The notes under the pieces are model-generated. The model was not told where the DNA came from. It saw nothing but the letters and a program-made list of their open reading frames with translations, and did not search any database. This document shows, piece by piece, positions 19,561-43,902 of a DNA stretch of 53,797 bases. The stretch lies in assembly GCA_031263535.1 (NCBI GenBank), contig JAISFO010000033.1, positions 1-53,797 of the forward strand. The letters are read 5' to 3'. Position numbers and translations under genes: made by a program. Numbering within the stretch: the first letter of the stretch is position 1; each line of letters opens with the position of its first letter. The stretch is from Holosporales bacterium. Its GTDB lineage: Bacteria > Pseudomonadota > Alphaproteobacteria > UBA3830 > JAIRWN01.

Positions 19561-19879
19561 AGGCGCTTATTATGGTGACTGGTGGTGCAAATAGAAAAGA
19601 CATGGGGGGGGGCCTACCCCCCTCTTTGGCACTAGTAGTGAGGGACAGCTTTGCTCTGAACTAGGGGTTAGGTATTGCGATAATTATGTTTCTGAAGAAG
19701 CCAGTACTAGCTTTACGTTATCTTTAGATAGAGCACATAACTTTAAATTTAGTAACGGCTTCAACTTAAGAAAACTTCAGTTCGAAGAACTGTCAAACAA
19801 GGAAGCCAATAAGGCTTCCGAGCCTTGCGTTAGCAAGACCAAGCTGAGAGACGCTCAAGTACTATTCAGTTGGTCGTGA
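19561..19879 (+). repeat. hairpin-rich repeat, copy A
   Basis: This stretch and 19980-20290 are diverged copies of one element. Copy A has an ATG (19572), a G9 tract (19604-19612) beside a C6 tract, then an open frame of about 94 codons (19595-19879) without its own ATG. That frame contains CSELGVRYCDN and QFEELSNKEANKASEPC. The end carries consecutive hairpins: CAGTTC/GAACTG, GGAAGCC/GGCTTCC and CTTGC/GCAAG. Copy B keeps the hairpins with changed bases and also keeps the peptide. A short ATG frame ending in SLALVVRDSFALN is conserved too. It could be a palindromic repeat that encodes peptide, or the 5' part of a decayed surface-protein gene. No transposase is present. Confidence 0.55.
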
Positions 19880-19979: not shown

Positions 19980-20290
19980 AATGTTGTAGTCTTCCTTCAG
20001 ATATTTCGCTATGGAATAGTCATGATAGGCGCAAAGCGTGCTGGAGCTAGAGAGATTGCCCCCCCCCCCTCCTTCTCTTTAGCACTAGTGCTGAGGGGCA
20101 GTCCTGCTCTAAATTGAGGGTTAGGTGTTGCAGTGATTTTAAACCGAATGATGATTTTAATCTAAGAAGAGTTCAGTTCGCAGAACTGTCAAACGAGCAG
20201 GCTAATGCCTGCGAGCCTTGCGGCAGCAAGCCCAAACTGGGCCTATCTAACATACAGATCGCTGGCTGTTCAAATTCTCACGATGGGTTC
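19980..20290 (+). repeat. hairpin-rich repeat, copy B, with C11 tract
   Basis: Second copy of the element at 19561-19879, running into the outer-membrane protein gene. It carries a C11 tract at 20059-20069 and the hairpins CAGTTC/GAACTG, GCAGGC/GCCTGC, CTTGC/GCAAG and GCCCA/TGGGC in close succession. The peptide frame (KLRVRCCSD..., QFAELSNEQANACEPCGSK) is open and continuous with the surface protein from 20306. An ATG at 20022 reads into the C-tract in another frame, and one extra C would join the two frames. A 13-bp direct repeat, GCATCAATGTTGT, occurs at 19975-19987 and 20300-20312, bracketing this copy. Confidence 0.55.
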
Positions 20291-36619: not shown

Positions 36620-37300
36620 CTAGCTTAATAAAGCTCTATACTTTAATTCGGCCATTTTCCAGTCTTCTTCGGTATCAATATCTTGTACCATAGACTCAGG
36701 CAGCACATAAGCCAGCGTTTTTGGCGGCACTAAAGTTTTTTCCTGTAATAAAATTTCGGTTTTACAAAAATAAAACATTCCGGCGTCAAAATACCCTTCT
36801 TTAAGATCCTGTGATCGCATTTGTTGTGCTTCTTCATTGTCTGGTATCAAAAGCCCATCTTGTATCCTAAGCACCCATTCCACTGGTACGGAATATCTGC
36901 ACACGGGCATCAGAGCATCATGCTCAGCGAATTTATCATAGGCATTTTTCAGCAATCCTGCCGTTAAAAATGGGGCGCAAGGCATAATGCAACAAATATT
37001 ATTGAACGTCTTGACTAGATCTTTATAGGCATATATTACTTCTTCAAGAACATCGAATGTAGGAGCTTGATCACTGCTAGTTTCTTGACTACGCATAAAC
37101 GGAACATTTGCACCATATTTTTTAGAAACGTTTGCGATTTCGGGACAATCGGTTGAGACCATTACTTCATCAAAAATACCGCTCTCTACACAGGCGACAA
37201 TGGGATAAGCAATTATCGGCTTACCAAAAAACTCTTTAATGTTTTTCTTTGGTATACGTTTAGATCCACCTCTGGCAGTGACAATTGCGACATTTTGCAT
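36620..37300 (-). CDS. pseF: acylneuraminate/pseudaminic acid cytidylyltransferase (PseF-like)
   Basis: Activates a nine-carbon nonulosonic acid with CTP to the CMP-sugar used by glycosyltransferases. N-terminal VTARGGSKRIPKKNIKEFFGKPIIAY holds the nucleotide-binding signature. MRSQDLKEGYFDAGMFYF and MVQDIDTEEDWKMAELKYRAL match PseF better than NeuA. 226 residues. It is the last gene of the minus-strand sugar operon, 34 bp after the methyltransferase reading frame. The nonulosonate synthase (PseI/LegI/NeuB) that should make its substrate is not in the window. Confidence 0.85.
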   Translation of the reverse strand: MQNVAIVTARGGSKRIPKKNIKEFFGKPIIAYPIVACVESGIFDEVMVSTDCPEIANVSKKYGANVPFMRSQETSSDQAPTFDVLEEVIYAYKDLVKTFNNICCIMPCAPFLTAGLLKNAYDKFAEHDALMPVCRYSVPVEWVLRIQDGLLIPDNEEAQQMRSQDLKEGYFDAGMFYFCKTEILLQEKTLVPPKTLAYVLPESMVQDIDTEEDWKMAELKYRALLS

Positions 37301-37334: not shown

Positions 37335-38020
37335 TCAAACTTCTTGGTAGCCGCCATACAAATCTTTCTTTAAAACCTGTACACAATAAAAATCCTCAAT
37401 GTCGCTACAATTAATTGTATTGCAGCAAGGATTAAAGTAATCATAACGAAATTTGTAAATCTCTTTGTATGTTCCAAAAGACTTGAACATTTTACCACAA
37501 TCAATTTTATACGTATAGGCATCAGCTTCTAATTTATGATGATATTTTCGTTTCTGCGGATATGTAGGGCAAAAATCACCTATAACCAAGACTCCACCAT
37601 CGGCTACACAACCATCTGCATTGGCTATACACTGAAAAATAGACTCTCTATCTATCCAGTGTAAACAGTAGCCGAGTATTACTAGATCAAACTTAGAATT
37701 AAAAATCCCCCCCCCCCTGATCTCGCAGAAATATCTCCACAATACAACTCAAGACCAAACTTAGATTTCCCATAGGCAACTGCTTTCTCGGAAGCTTCAA
37801 TTCCAACAAATCTGCGACAATCTTGAAAAATATCTTTCAATAAGCTAAGCCTATACCCACTACTACAACCAAACTCCATTACTGATTTTGGCTTAATTAA
37901 TAGACGAGTAACAATGCTACCAAGTACATCCGTTGATAAATCTTGCTTTAATTCAAAATCCAGATTTTCGGCGAAGTAACGATTCCCTTCACCATTGACA
38001 AATAGTTCTTTCTGATTCAT
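37335..38020 (-). pseudogene. sugar-cluster methyltransferase, out of frame at a G11 tract (phase-variable candidate)
   Basis: Class I SAM methyltransferase in two frames. The first part (38020 downward) has VMEFGCSSGYRLSLL (motif I), VGIEASEKAVAYGK and LYCGDIS, then runs through the G tract and stops after GGGGFLILSLI. The second frame picks up at IFNSKFDLVILGYCLHWIDRE and VADGGVLVIGDFCPTYP, the expected motifs IV-VI, to the end at 37335. One extra G, or two fewer, would restore about 226 codons. The tract lies between motif I and motif IV, so the present form makes only a dead fragment. By position it probably O- or N-methylates the cluster sugar. Long G tracts are classic slipped-strand switches in surface genes of other bacteria. 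Confidence 0.75.
37707..37717 (-). repeat. G11 homopolymer (C11 on the + strand) inside the methyltransferase gene
   Basis: Eleven consecutive C on the + strand, G on the coding strand, in a background of about 40 percent GC. It sits exactly at the frame break; 9 or 12 G's give the full-length reading. Confidence 0.85.
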
Positions 38021-38044: not shown

Positions 38045-39364
38045 TTAATTTAGTCTTTTGAATCCGCTGTGACAAACTTTACTATCTACAAAAGCCATCA
38101 TATCTGATTCAGACATAAGGCTCATTTTTCCAAACACTTCATCGACTGAATTTGCATAATCCCGAATATATCCATCCTTATGCGCATATGAGGCATAATA
38201 CAAAGTGGATGCCAAAAAGCCATGCGACAGCATGAGCTTGGTGAAAACAGTCTTATATAGCAACGGATTATTCGATAAAAACTGAAAATGCCCAAGTGGA
38301 TAAATGCCAGATATATCTATTTTCAACCCATGTTTATCTGCTTTTTCTTTCCAACAATCTTGTACCGCTTTTCCGGACTTCATAAGGTGCGAAGGAACGT
38401 TCAAGGCTTTCATTTTATTAATTGTGGCTAGAGCTGCTGTTGGCCCTATCCTTTCCGTCCAATAGGTGCTGGAGATAAACGATTCCTGCGCAGATTGCAT
38501 GATCTGCTTTTTACCTACAACAGCCGCCATCGGATAGCCATTGGATAAAGCTTTAGCAAACACAGCAATATCCGGCTCTATGTCATATATCAGATGCGCT
38601 CCGCCGACATTCAACCTAAAACCAGAAGTGACTTCATCCACTATAAAAGCAATATTCTTTTTCTGAGTAAAAGCCCTAATGGCGGCGATAAAGTCTTTAT
38701 CTGGGGGAGAATTGCGTACGGCTTCTAAAACAATTGCGCCTAATTCGTCGCCATGCTTATAGCTGAGCTCCAAAAATTCTTCTACATCATTATAGTTAAA
38801 CGGGATAGAAGTCTCAAAAAGTTGTCTCGGTATTCCTTTTGGTTTTAATCCAGGCAGTAGGTGGCCATCCAGAGACTTATCAGAAGCTAAATTCGCACTA
38901 ATATACCAATCGTGCCATCCATGATATCCACAAAATAAAACCTTATCCTTTGATGAATAGGCTCTAGCTATTCTAACTGCTATGGCCAAGGCCTCACCAC
39001 CACAGCGAGCAAACCGCACCATTTCAGCCCAAGGATGCAGCTTTAGAAGCTGCTTAGCTAGTTCAACTTCCTCGTAACAGTTTAACGAGGACATCGAGCC
39101 TCTATCTATTGCCTTTTTGACAGCAGAATCAACATCATCGTCCGCAAAACCCAAAGCACATGCCCCTATGCCCATGGATATCATATCGATGTACTTGTGG
39201 CCCTCTAGGTCAATTACCTCACAGCCCTTAGCCTCTGTGTAATAATTTACCCACCCGTCTGGGACAAACATTTCCGGCCGCTTTGACAGCAACTGAGTCC
39301 CGCCGGGGATAATACTTTTAGCTTCGTTGTATGCTTTTTGGTTTTTTGACACTGTATAATTCAA
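38045..39364 (-). CDS. class III aminotransferase, glutamate-1-semialdehyde aminomutase-like
   Basis: PLP enzyme that probably transfers an amino group to a sugar intermediate or side chain in this cluster. GSAM-like layout: SIIPGGTQLLSKRPEMF at the start, MISMGIGACALGFADDDV, FCGYHGWHDWY, FIVDEVTSGFRL and the PLP lysine in VFAKALSNGYPMAAVVG. 439 residues. It is not expected to be the heme-pathway HemL, because of its place in the sugar operon. TTG start at 39364 with a weak ribosome site; it lies 40 bp after the SDR gene. The exact substrate is not known to me. Confidence 0.82.
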   Translation of the reverse strand: MNYTVSKNQKAYNEAKSIIPGGTQLLSKRPEMFVPDGWVNYYTEAKGCEVIDLEGHKYIDMISMGIGACALGFADDDVDSAVKKAIDRGSMSSLNCYEEVELAKQLLKLHPWAEMVRFARCGGEALAIAVRIARAYSSKDKVLFCGYHGWHDWYISANLASDKSLDGHLLPGLKPKGIPRQLFETSIPFNYNDVEEFLELSYKHGDELGAIVLEAVRNSPPDKDFIAAIRAFTQKKNIAFIVDEVTSGFRLNVGGAHLIYDIEPDIAVFAKALSNGYPMAAVVGKKQIMQSAQESFISSTYWTERIGPTAALATINKMKALNVPSHLMKSGKAVQDCWKEKADKHGLKIDISGIYPLGHFQFLSNNPLLYKTVFTKLMLSHGFLASTLYYASYAHKDGYIRDYANSVDEVFGKMSLMSESDMMAFVDSKVCHSGFKRLN

Positions 39365-39403: not shown

Positions 39404-40138
39404 CTATACCGCACACCATCCCCCGTCCACCATTAAGTTATGACCGGTGATGTAGCCCGCTTCGTCAGATAACAGAAAGCTAACAGCCGGAGCTACTTCT
39501 TCTGGCTTTGCCATTCTGTTTAAGGGACATTTTTTAGAGTATTGTTTCACAAAAATTGGACTTTGGTTGTCAAAAACCCCACCTGGAGACACGCAATTGG
39601 CCCTTATGCAAAATTTACCAAAGTAAGATGCCAGATATCTGGTGAAGTTTATAACTCCACCCTTAATGGCTGTATAGGCCGCATGAGGCTGCATGTCGGT
39701 GTTTTCATATATATTAAAGTCGTTTCCAACAACGCCGTATATAGATCCGAAATTGACCACAGATCCAGCCTTTTGCTTTTTCATTACCTTAAGAGCCTCA
39801 AAGCAAGTGTAGAATACACTGTTAAGTTGTAAATCTACGTTCTTCGTCCAAGATTCAACAGAAATCTCATCAAACCTTCCGCTGAAGTCTCTAGTTCTTG
39901 GATAAGCGCAATTTACCAGGCCATCAAGCCTTCCAAATCTGGCAATTACCTCACTAATACTTTGCTTCACTGAATTATAGTCGCTGATATCGCATTTAAG
40001 CGAATAGTTGTCCAAATCACCATCAACCGCAGTATCAAAGTTGATACAGCTGCTGCCTTTACTTCGTATATCTTTGACAACAGCTCTGCCGATAAGACCG
40101 CATCCACCAGCTACCACAATCACTTTGTCATGCAGCAT
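39404..40138 (-). CDS. short-chain dehydrogenase/reductase, PtmA-like
   Basis: NAD(P)-dependent oxidoreductase. GGCGLIGRAVVKDI near residue 10 is the dinucleotide site, NCAYPRT replaces the NNAG turn, the Ser is in SVVNFGSIYGVVG, and YTAIKGGVINFTRYLA has the Tyr-x-x-x-Lys pair. The C-terminal ITGHNLMVDGGWCAV is typical. 244 residues from ATG at 40138, which overlaps the stop of the upstream gene in TGATG. PtmA-type SDRs accompany PtmE-type nucleotidyltransferases in legionaminic-acid loci, supporting a nonulosonate role. Confidence 0.85.
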   Translation of the reverse strand: MLHDKVIVVAGGCGLIGRAVVKDIRSKGSSCINFDTAVDGDLDNYSLKCDISDYNSVKQSISEVIARFGRLDGLVNCAYPRTRDFSGRFDEISVESWTKNVDLQLNSVFYTCFEALKVMKKQKAGSVVNFGSIYGVVGNDFNIYENTDMQPHAAYTAIKGGVINFTRYLASYFGKFCIRANCVSPGGVFDNQSPIFVKQYSKKCPLNRMAKPEEVAPAVSFLLSDEAGYITGHNLMVDGGWCAV

Positions 40139-41193
40139 CAAAACCTCACATAATTCACGTCGGCTTTTGCCTTAGCGTAGCTTTGTGGTGTGCCGATATC
40201 AAGCCAGTATCCCATTATAGGGAAATGTCTGACGTTTTTCTTGTGATCTATAAGCAAAGCTACAAAATCTGTAGCGTCAAAGGACTGACCACCCGGAATA
40301 AGGTTTATACACTCATTTTTAATCAAATAAATACCAGCATTTGAATGATAGGTATACGTTGGTTTTTCAGTCAATGAGTCAACCTTATCACTACTGACAT
40401 TCAGAACTGCGTATGGAACATCCACTCTTACGTTTGACGTCGCCACAAGCATATCGCTATCTGTTTCTTTATGCTGATAGAAAAAACTGTCAAAATCTAT
40501 ATTAGTAAGTATATCGGCGTTCATTACCAGCACATCATTGTGAACAAATTTCTTCACTAAACCAACAGATCCAATGGTTCCCAGCGGAATCTTTTCTTCA
40601 ATGTAATGGATATTGATATGCTTATAGGCTTTGTTTAGATACTCTTTTATCTGGCTTTTCATGCAATTTACAGATACATGAAAATCCCGTACTCCATATT
40701 TAATCAGCCTGTCTATATTATGTGCGATTATTGGCTTTCCTGCCAAGTCAAGCAAAGGTTTTGGAATGTTGTTGGTATGCGGCTTAAGGCGAAGTCCTTG
40801 ACCTCCGGCCATAAGCACAGCGTCCATCGGCAAAATCGCCCGCATACTTTTCAGATCTAGCAGATCCTTGATTGTTCCATCGTCAGACAGGACCGGAGCT
40901 ATCTTCAGCTTCATCGATTTTAAAAACCTGATTTTCTCGTAATCATTTATGTTTGAAATGTAATGAAAGTTTGTGCACATCACCTGTGCGACGCTGTCGG
41001 TCAGCGCAATACCAGATATTAAGGATCGCCGGATATCTCCATCAGTCAGCGAGCCGATTAAAGTACCATTATCGTCTATTACAAAAATAGTAAGAATCTG
41101 CGTATCCGAGATCTGATTAATCTTACTTAATGCGGCAAGAATAGTTTCGCTCTTGTGAATTATGAATTTGTCTATTTCCATAGAGCTATACAA
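40138..41193 (-). CDS. nucleotidyltransferase with N-terminal CBS pair, PtmE-like
   Basis: Probably makes an NDP-hexosamine (in the Campylobacter pathway PtmE makes GDP-glucosamine). Residues 1-120 form two CBS repeats (FVIDDNGTLIGSLTDGDIRRSLI). Residues 125-351 form a sugar-phosphate nucleotidyltransferase with MAGGQGLRLKPHTNNIPKPLLDLAGKPII, then VMNADILTNIDF and GYWLDIGTPQSYAKA. The reading starts with TTG at 41193, overlapping the deacetylase gene by 8 bp; ATG at 41181 is an alternative. CBS-linked nucleotidyltransferases are a hallmark of legionaminic-type clusters. Confidence 0.85.
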   Translation of the reverse strand: MYSSMEIDKFIIHKSETILAALSKINQISDTQILTIFVIDDNGTLIGSLTDGDIRRSLISGIALTDSVAQVMCTNFHYISNINDYEKIRFLKSMKLKIAPVLSDDGTIKDLLDLKSMRAILPMDAVLMAGGQGLRLKPHTNNIPKPLLDLAGKPIIAHNIDRLIKYGVRDFHVSVNCMKSQIKEYLNKAYKHINIHYIEEKIPLGTIGSVGLVKKFVHNDVLVMNADILTNIDFDSFFYQHKETDSDMLVATSNVRVDVPYAVLNVSSDKVDSLTEKPTYTYHSNAGIYLIKNECINLIPGGQSFDATDFVALLIDHKKNVRHFPIMGYWLDIGTPQSYAKAKADVNYVRF

Positions 41194-41877
41194 CCTGTTT
41201 CAGTAACTGAAACGCTTCTGCATATCTAACGCCCACTGTACTTCCACGCAGTGTTGCCAGCAACGTTATATTCTCAATGCTTCTTGGGAAAGGTTGATAA
41301 CCAAGCTCTGAAGCATATAATCTTTTAATAAGACTGACTTTACGCTCAAATTGCTCAGTTACATCTACGTAATAGTTTGGGGCAAACATATTGCCTGCAA
41401 TTGCCGGAGCAAATTCTGTTTCCGAAATGGTTTCGTACATTAAAACCTTTTTAATAGATGGATACCGAAAGCTTTTTGTGCAAGCAAATGCAGCGTCAAA
41501 AGTAACTCTGTGATCGCTATGAACGTCGGATCTGTTTGGAATATAGACAACTTCCGGAGTTAATTGCTTAAATATGTCGGCAATTTTGGAGATTGCTTCA
41601 AGTAAAGGAAAAGTATCCATAAAAGTGGTTGGATATCCCAGCTGAAAAACCTCATCAAAATCATAAGCTTGTCTAATATTTTTCATTAAACGGTCTTGTT
41701 CCTTTTCTTGTTTTTGAGATGGGGGTGGGGTGGGGTGGGGGTACAACTGCTTTTAGCAACAGCACAGGTTACAAAAATACAACTGACTTTGTCATTTTCG
41801 CTTTTGTGTCGAAGGATTGTTCCGCCTACGCCTAAACTTTCATCATCCGGATGAGGTGCAATCACCACTACATTCAT
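41186..41877 (-). pseudogene. PIG-L family N-deacetylase, out of frame at a CCCCA repeat (phase-variable candidate)
   Basis: LmbE/PIG-L zinc enzymes remove acetyl groups from amino sugars. The first frame (41877 downward) has the zinc motif IAPHPDDESLGVGGTI and KVSCIFVTCAVAKSSC, then runs out in TPTPPHPHLKNKKRNKTV. The other frame resumes with QKQEKEQDRLMKNIRQAY, FQLGYPTTFMDTF, VYIPNRSDVHSDHRVTFDAAF (second zinc motif) and ends at 41186. The break is at a CCCCA pentamer array on the coding strand. Losing exactly one 5-nt unit restores the whole reading (...SSCTPTPPPSQKQEK...). It overlaps both neighbours by a few bases, so loss of translation here could also affect downstream genes. Confidence 0.75.
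41721..41742 (-). repeat. pentanucleotide array (GGGGT on +, CCCCA coding side)
   Basis: Four GGGGT-like units with an extra G in the first and last. It lies exactly at the frame break of the PIG-L gene. Because five is not a multiple of three, each unit gained or lost changes frame; minus one unit gives ON. Confidence 0.85.
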
Positions 41878-42757
41878 ATGTATTCTCCAACTTTGGGCAA
41901 AGTATTAAATTCATGTTCCAATATCCTGATACTCCCATCATAACATTTGATGTCTATTGAATTGTCAGGTACTGCCAAAATCTTGCCAAATTCAATATTG
42001 CTCACCTCGCACGGCATTTCCTTAACTTTCCAAATTGTCACTTTATTTGAGTCATAAATCAAATGTGCGCCAATATACGGCTTAGATAAAGCTCTGACGA
42101 GGTTATAAATTGCCGTTGAAGACATATTAAAACGGATCACGCCGTCATGTTCGCCTCTTTTCCTCCAATAATTAGCCTGTCTGTCGTCCTGCTTGGATCG
42201 CGTAAATTTACGACATTTCAGCTTATCGTGCAATTTCTCCAGCTGAGATTCGGCTGTAGTCGCAATTTTATTGTATAGACTTCTGGCGTCATCTTCGTAA
42301 GAAACATTTATCGGCGTCTGGCTCAAAATATCGCCGCTGTCTGCACCATCATCCATTATAAAAAAAAGGTTGAGGCTGTCTCGCTTAATCCTAAAGCCAG
42401 CGTCCAAATTAAAGGATGCCTGCCTCTATTTTGGGGAAGATTTGTTGGATGAAAGCCAATCACGCCAATTTCTGTTAGGTTGAGTAACTCTTGCTTTATT
42501 AAGCTAGACCAGCCGAAACAGAAAATAACATCTGGATTAAGCGACTTGATCCAGTCGACTGTCTCCTTGGCATTGACATCGATTGCAAATCTATAAGGAA
42601 TGTTTGCTTTGTTGCACAGAGGAATCAGATCGCAGAAATCAGAGTTAACCCTTGATCTTTCTTTAGTAACTACTCCAACGACCTCTGCTTCAATAGCGAT
42701 AAGCTTGGCCAACATCCGAGCGGAAAACTCAACGGTGCCAATAAATACGATTCTCAT
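41874..42757 (-). pseudogene. formyltransferase of the sugar cluster, out of frame at a T8 run (phase-variable candidate)
   Basis: Methionyl-tRNA-formyltransferase-like fold; in sugar clusters such enzymes add formyl from formyl-THF to an amino sugar. The first frame has MRIVFIGTVEFSARML, VGVVTKE, VIFCFGWSSLIKQELL and IGFHPTNLPQNRGRHPLIW (formyl-THF and catalytic Asn-His region), then stops after ETASTFFL. The second continues IMDDGADSGDILSQTPINV, the expected follow-on with the catalytic Asp, to a C-terminal domain ending in LPKVGEYI. The break is at eight T's; nine or six would give about 294 codons. It overlaps the epimerase gene and the deacetylase gene as ATGA on both sides. Confidence 0.75.
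42360..42367 (-). repeat. T8 run (A8 on +) at the formyltransferase frame break
   Basis: Eight A's on the + strand. The two halves of the formyltransferase meet here, one nucleotide short of one frame. T9 or T6 would be full length. Confidence 0.7.
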
Positions 42758-43902
42758 TTGGCACGCAAATCAAAAAACGCCTTCTTCAACAGCTTACTTG
42801 CATCGATTTTTTTGAGTTTATTTATGATACTGTTCGCCGCGTCGTTTCCTTCGTAAAAATTGCGTACTGTTTTAAGTGCTTGCTGAAACTCAGTTGAATA
42901 TAGTTTTTGCATAGCGCATAGGATTGCTTCTTTGGTGTTTTCACAGTTGATAATAGATTTGGACTGTATCCTGCCTTGTTGTCTGTCGCCAATGTTAATT
43001 GTGCCTATTTTAAAGCTTGGCGCTTCTGTTATTCCGCTGGAAGAGTTGCCGACAACGGCGTCAACAAACTGCAGAGTGGAAAAATATCGAAGCTGGCCCA
43101 GAGACTCGAAAGCTATTGCATTTTCATGCAGCGATACATACTCGTCTGTTAAATCAAATATTTCTTCATTTCCATCATCAGAGTTGGGTTTTGTGAAAAT
43201 GATCTTTGTGTTCTTCAGCTCGGACAAAGCATCCAGCAATGTTTGAAATTGCTCAGCCTGGCTGTAACCATGTGCTAAAGTCATGGGATGAAAAGTAATA
43301 AGCAGGTTTTTTAGGCTGAATTTAAAATGCAGCTGTTCTTCCAGTTCATCTTTGGAGAGTAGTTTTGTGTTTTTGATATTTTCAACGCCAAGAGAGCCAA
43401 CATTAAAAACATACTCTGGATTTTCGCCTAACTGAATTACGCGATTTCTATACTCTTCACAAATCGTGAAATGTAAGTGGCTCATCTTAGTGATGCAGTG
43501 GCGAATTTCTTCATCTATTATTCCAAATGTAGATTCGCCTCCGCCAATGTGCGCTATTGGCAGCTTGCTTAGCATAGCGGCAATGACCACGGCCATTATC
43601 TCATACCTGTCCCCCAGTACAATAAGCACGTCAGGCTTAAGCTCGCCAAAGGCTTCATAGAACTTTTCAACAGCAACCGACATAGCGTATGCGGGCTTTT
43701 TCTCGATGCAAATGTCTATTTTTTTGGTAATCGCAGTTGTAATTTCCGAACAAGTATAACCAAACCGTTCGGATAAATGAGTTCCAGTTACGACCAGCTG
43801 CAGGTCCAAATCAGCATCGCGTGAAATCTTGTCGATTAAGTTCGACATGATTCCATATTCAGCCCTTGTGGAGGTTACAACGCAGATTTTCTTGATGCTC
43901 AT
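42754..43902 (-). CDS. neuC: hydrolysing NDP-GlcNAc 2-epimerase, NeuC/LegG type
   Basis: Converts UDP- or GDP-linked GlcNAc-type sugar to the free ManNAc-type sugar that nonulosonate synthase condenses with phosphoenolpyruvate. GT-B fold: VVTSTRAEYGIMSNLIDKI near the start, VLGDRYEIMAVVIAAML, AHIGGGESTFGIIDEEIRHCITKMSHLHF, LITFHPMTLAHGYS and VGNSSSGITEAPSFKIGTINIGDRQQGR. 382 residues, intact. It overlaps the SH3 gene and the formyltransferase gene as ATGA. With a PtmE-like enzyme present, a GDP-linked substrate (LegG) is plausible. Confidence 0.9.
   Translation of the reverse strand: MSIKKICVVTSTRAEYGIMSNLIDKISRDADLDLQLVVTGTHLSERFGYTCSEITTAITKKIDICIEKKPAYAMSVAVEKFYEAFGELKPDVLIVLGDRYEIMAVVIAAMLSKLPIAHIGGGESTFGIIDEEIRHCITKMSHLHFTICEEYRNRVIQLGENPEYVFNVGSLGVENIKNTKLLSKDELEEQLHFKFSLKNLLITFHPMTLAHGYSQAEQFQTLLDALSELKNTKIIFTKPNSDDGNEEIFDLTDEYVSLHENAIAFESLGQLRYFSTLQFVDAVVGNSSSGITEAPSFKIGTINIGDRQQGRIQSKSIINCENTKEAILCAMQKLYSTEFQQALKTVRNFYEGNDAANSIINKLKKIDASKLLKKAFFDLRAK

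Follow-up and report, generated by a model that had tools for sequence, protein, structure and literature searches.

An eleven-G homopolymer within a SAM methyltransferase gene is probably a translational phase-variation switch operated by slipped-strand mispairing and assembled in its OFF state. The gene lies on the minus strand of contig 33, which in its entirety (53,797 bp, 43.3% GC) forms the window, that is, the whole stretch of DNA analysed, and belongs to a genome of 912,503 bp in 41 contigs (96.9% complete; here G000). During replication, slipped-strand mispairing would add single G's to the run or remove them. At G9 or G12, ribosomes would stay in one frame and make the whole class I SAM methyltransferase; any other length would bring a stop immediately after the tract, ahead of motif IV, and leave the cell without the enzyme. 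The assembled genome would have captured one of these OFF lengths. That the G11 tract changes length in cells is suggested by comparison with other tracts of the genome and genus.

The original prediction placed the meeting point of two reading frames exactly at eleven G's, and this was confirmed at the position given in Table 1. ORF1 runs from 38020 to 37682; ORF2 (135 aa, minus strand) is open from 37742, has its stop at 37335-37337 and carries FDLVILGYCLHW, and the two overlap across the tract. Setting the tract to G9 or G12 in silico gave a single frame of 227 or 228 aa, respectively, so that the proposed restoration of a complete methyltransferase by these two lengths was borne out, whereas G8, G10, G11 and G13 led to a stop at 111, 106, 112 and 107 aa, respectively. 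The glycine-rich EFGCSSG lies 5′ of the tract and FDLVILGYCLHW 3′ of it; the predicted location of the switch point, between motif I and motif IV, therefore holds. Motifs on both sides are intact and tract length is the sole lesion in the gene. G11 is thus a frame-setting repeat inside a coding sequence, as expected for poly-G translational phase variation. It is internal to the contig, has unique flanks on both sides and occurs at a single place in the genome; the assembly contains no further copy of the locus in which the tract differs in length.

Table 1. Positions in the window of the tract, the methyltransferase frames and the surrounding operon genes
Feature	Position	Strand	Remarks
PseF-type CMP-nonulosonate cytidylyltransferase	36620..37300	-	downstream of methyltransferase, same cassette; TIGR03584 253 bits, cut-off 206
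Methyltransferase C-terminal part, other frame	37335..37706	-	FDLVILGYCLHWIDR, GGVLVIGDF
Methyltransferase N-terminal frame	37682..38020	-	112 aa as assembled; motif I EFGCSSG
G11 homopolymer, proposed slippage site	37707..37717	-	C11 on + strand; predicted ON = G9/G12; assembled = OFF
Class III aminotransferase (glutamate-1-semialdehyde aminomutase-like)	38045..39364	-	upstream of methyltransferase, same cassette; Aminotran_3 1.8e-41
Short-chain dehydrogenase, PtmA-like	39404..40141	-	below PtmA cut-off
Sugar nucleotidyltransferase with CBS domain (PtmE-like)	40138..41193	-	
PIG-L/LmbE deacetylase	41186..41877	-	in two frames, split at C-rich repeat
C-rich repeat CCCCCACCCCACCCCACCCCC in PIG-L deacetylase	41721..41741	-	split point of gene
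Formyltransferase	41874..42757	-	in two frames, split at T8 (42360-42367)
NeuC-type hydrolysing UDP-GlcNAc 2-epimerase	42754..43902	-	TIGR03568 440 bits, cut-off 236

The joined product is a class I SAM methyltransferase, with the glycine-rich loop of motif I, a Rossmann-like fold and profile matches above the Pfam cut-offs to Methyltransf_25 (7e-8), Methyltransf_11 (2e-7) and Methyltransf_12. Its AlphaFold model (mean pLDDT 81.5, pTM 0.83) has a predicted fold matching methyltransferases that include the sugar N-methyltransferase NodS, and places residues G102-G104 between strand 91-94 and strand 110-116, i.e. strands 3 and 4. The pseudaminic-acid-associated methylase family Pse_Me-ase (TIGR03587) was rejected as an assignment, with 17.1 bits against a cut-off of 112. 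Homologues were drawn from a red-deer alphaproteobacterial MAG, Mailhella MAGs, a Spirochaetia, a Deltaproteobacteria and a Leptospirales MAG. Both halves of the protein align with them over their length at 30-39% identity, and the tract-coded residues are missing in all seven homologous sequences. Together with the modelled position, this indicates that the tract codes for a loop insert, a feature that the original prediction had missed. According to the model, the insert is probably dispensable and could gain or lose a glycine with the core left intact. The distant homologue in the red-deer MAG (39-42% identical) has an in-frame G9 of its own at a different codon; the chance of such a tract in a 690-bp gene, at the tract density of that genome, is about 2.6%. 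The nonulosonate cluster of the same MAG (L059, locus 31% GC) contains three G/C tracts of 9-10 at 1118, 8408 and 11902, in genes for PseB, the homologous methyltransferase and another methyltransferase, all in frame.

Also overlooked at first reading was the operon in which the gene resides, together with the splitting of two more of its genes at simple repeats. The genes of Table 1 lie on the same strand, as does an MFS transporter, while LegB, LegC and NeuB are found on contig 39. LegB, LegC, NeuB, NeuC and PseF each score above cut-off, and the CMP transferase is of PseF type, not LegF. By its gene content, the operon is assigned to a nonulosonate pathway of legionaminic/pseudaminic type. 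The methyltransferase would probably act on a sugar of this type or on its CMP-activated form, and switching would change the surface glycan from cell to cell.

In the two same-genus genomes used for comparison, G001 and G002, a Gfo/Idh-like and NeuA-like pair (genes named from sequence) replaces the aminotransferase-methyltransferase-PseF cassette, and the methyltransferase gene was not found in either. The red-deer MAG and Mailhella have the cassette gene set too, adjoining PseB/NeuB-type genes, and the same aminotransferase neighbours the methyltransferase homologue in L059 and L060. The methyltransferase therefore belongs to a swapped terminal module.

The claim that eleven G's are long for the GC content of this genome was upheld: with independent bases, 0.004 runs of at least 11 are expected in the window. 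G/C runs there number 29 of length 5, 4 of length 6 and 2 of length 7, followed by runs of 9, 11 and 11; the fall-off is 0.14-0.26 per added base up to 6, and 0.012 runs are expected at lengths of at least 9. A/T runs are far more frequent than G/C runs when short, but none is longer than 8. Genome-wide, 38 G/C runs of at least 9 were counted against about 1.5 expected (independent bases) and only 7 A/T runs of that length. The corresponding G/C counts are 48 in G001 and 39 in G002. Several relatives in the order have no such G/C runs yet carry 30-84 A/T runs, and the excess is therefore confined to G/C runs and to some of the lineages.

The tracts lie largely in methyltransferases and other glycan enzymes (several methyltransferases, a C-methyltransferase, an FkbM-type methyltransferase, a dehydratase, formyl- and acetyltransferases, an MBOAT acyltransferase); some are intergenic or in core genes. 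Tracts of this genome are thus longer and commoner than chance and concentrated in surface-structure genes. Lost mismatch repair was ruled out as the cause of the excess, since MutS and MutL are present and intact in all three genomes; by the same token, these proteins would damp slippage, which counts against a switch. Core-like genes of the sister genomes, named from sequence, also carry in-frame G tracts: a Der-type GTPase (G10; L095 2512-2521) and EF-G (G8; L098 1571-1578) in G001, and LptD (G9; L112 1526-1534) in G002. Such tracts suggest that G-runs arise readily throughout these genomes, or that slippage is modest in rate, more than that each tract is under selection, and part of the excess may reflect this mutational tendency instead of selection for switching.

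The other long runs of the window, G9 (19604-19612) and C11 (20059-20069), lie upstream or at the start of members of an outer-membrane-like paralogous family with the C-terminus HKKFSTRFGIIMDL. Tracts of this family also occur in L006, L016, L032, L044 and L053, with some copies in frame and others not. Similar flanks capable of pairing, GCTAAAGAGA...TCTCTCTAGC, surround the G-run at L016 470-510, L044 2025-2070 and window 20045-20085, as if a dispersed small palindromic element carried the tract in its loop.

Orthologous tracts of glycan genes coincide in position between the species but not in length. Of the 8 tract genes with an orthologous tract, 5 differ in frame between G000 and G001, three being OFF in G000 and ON in G001 and two the reverse. 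The second formyltransferase (contig 39), for example, has C13 out of frame and C14 in frame in G001; a PglD-like acetyltransferase has C16 in frame, C14 out of frame in G001 and G11 in frame in G002; and another methyltransferase has G12 out of frame, with G10 in frame in both G001 and G002. Within the operon itself, the deacetylase tract reads about C21 in G001 (L128 88-108) and C12, in frame, in G002 (L131 71-82), in the same codon region; its position is kept in the three species while length and composition differ. The operon formyltransferase, split at T8 in G000, is intact with T6 in G001, a further switch-like break in the pathway. Length differences between relatives at the same locus are thus seen both for the deacetylase tract and for other tracts of the genome. 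Contig breaks lie close to the deacetylase tract in the G001 and G002 assemblies, and the + strand GGGGGTGGGGTGGGGTGGGGG at the repeat in G000 is a strong predicted G-quadruplex candidate. The two-way frame differences between G000 and G001 are as switching predicts, unlike simple decay. By comparison with the sister genomes, the G11 run would be one of dozens of slippable tracts of this kind. Tract excess, sister-species tracts and the homologue's own tract make the slippable switch originally proposed the best explanation of the locus, and a mixture of lengths would be expected in cells.

An ordinary pseudogene, in an operon decaying in this species and with the G-run merely the place where the frame broke, is an unlikely reading, although some of the data favour it. 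Three operon genes are out of frame in the assembly. Moreover, HisF has a frameshift and the WbuX-type amidotransferase a nonsense codon, both away from simple repeats (L045 3160-3320 and 4440-4640) and both genes intact in G001; such ordinary breaks in legionaminic genes mean that some decay is under way. With these lesions the acetamidino branch would be decaying, either in the genome itself or at the level of the assembly. Against a pseudogene, the methyltransferase has no lesion beyond the length of its tract, its flanking motifs and both cassette neighbours, the aminotransferase and PseF, are intact, and one-way decay does not give the two-way differences described above.

An error of assembly or sequencing, the true length being a fixed G9 or G12 and the gene simply on, is improbable. 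The length of a homopolymer is easily misread, and these assemblies show poly-G artefacts at contig ends, but the G11 tract is internal and uniquely placed, and like tracts are found at orthologous sites in independent assemblies. From this recurrence it follows that the runs themselves exist, although a given length may be miscounted by one base. The multi-contig state of the assembly and the artefact-like poly-G at some contig ends, among them the start of contig 17 of G000 and the end of G001 C10, nevertheless count against the switch. Very long poly-C/G stretches at contig ends, L019 1-82 (that same contig 17 start) and L106 1586-1623, are probably sequencing artefacts.

Slippage could also take place on the G-run during transcription or translation, so that an OFF length would still give a share of complete enzyme and the tract would tune dosage instead of acting as a genetic switch. 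There is precedent in Buchnera, where polymerase slippage on poly-A rescues frameshifted genes (PMC2831843), and G11 is long enough for this to be considered. We regard it as very improbable as the full account, as DNA length differences between sister species point to genetic change; transcriptional or ribosomal slippage and phase variation could, however, coexist.

Poly-G contingency switching of nonulosonate glycans is best known from Campylobacterota and Neisseria. The closest known system appears to be ptmH (Cj1325) of Campylobacter jejuni, and by analogy the present locus would work like it. The ptmH tract ranges from G8 to G11, with G9 in frame (PMC3025981), and PtmH N-methylates CMP-Leg5Am7Ac (PMC3766260). 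Compared by description, both are SAM methyltransferase genes of a legionaminic pathway with a coding poly-G, whose length changes by single bases in ptmH and is proposed to do so here. They differ in phylum, in the ON lengths (here G9/G12) and in the presence here of a class III aminotransferase and a PseF-type transferase in the cassette; in addition, the WbuX-type amidotransferase, would-be supplier of the acetamidino group, is broken here. ORF 8 of the Legionella pneumophila serogroup 1 LPS locus is likewise a legionaminic-acid methyltransferase tied to a phase-variable epitope in the account given by passages of PMC3766260; unlike the present gene, it concerns the Legionella O-antigen, and those passages describe no poly-G switch for it.

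At the genome scale, the comparison is with the Campylobacter phasomes analysed by PhasomeIt, in which lengths are mostly 9-10 and poly-G is far commoner than poly-A (PMC6321876). They too comprise dozens of coding G/C tracts per genome, with methyltransferases and a formyltransferase among the genes (PMC6321876). The genomes studied here differ from them in being alphaproteobacterial and about 0.9 Mb in size, in keeping MutS/MutL, in having tracts of up to 16-21 and in carrying some tracts in core genes. We give an even chance to a broader reading, in which small-genome uncultured Alphaproteobacteria run a Campylobacter-like phasome of 40-60 G/C tracts per genome with MutS/MutL kept, one nonulosonate pathway is switched combinatorially (deacetylation, two formylations, acetylation and methylation), and the exchange of the terminal cassette introduced a further switch, either carried in with the cassette or gained by it.

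In the open-access literature, searches covering Alphaproteobacteria, Holosporales and gut Alphaproteobacteria turned up no report of a poly-G phasome. Poly-G phase variation being a known strategy, our results suggest its use in a lineage for which no report was found. If the switch is real, tiny-genome uncultured Alphaproteobacteria also use poly-G switching of nonulosonate glycans, and related methyltransferases of the pathway would have acquired G-tracts at different positions. It would further be predicted that switchable genes of these bacteria are called broken in metagenome assemblies, and that a reduced genome can retain mismatch repair and still hold a large number of switches.
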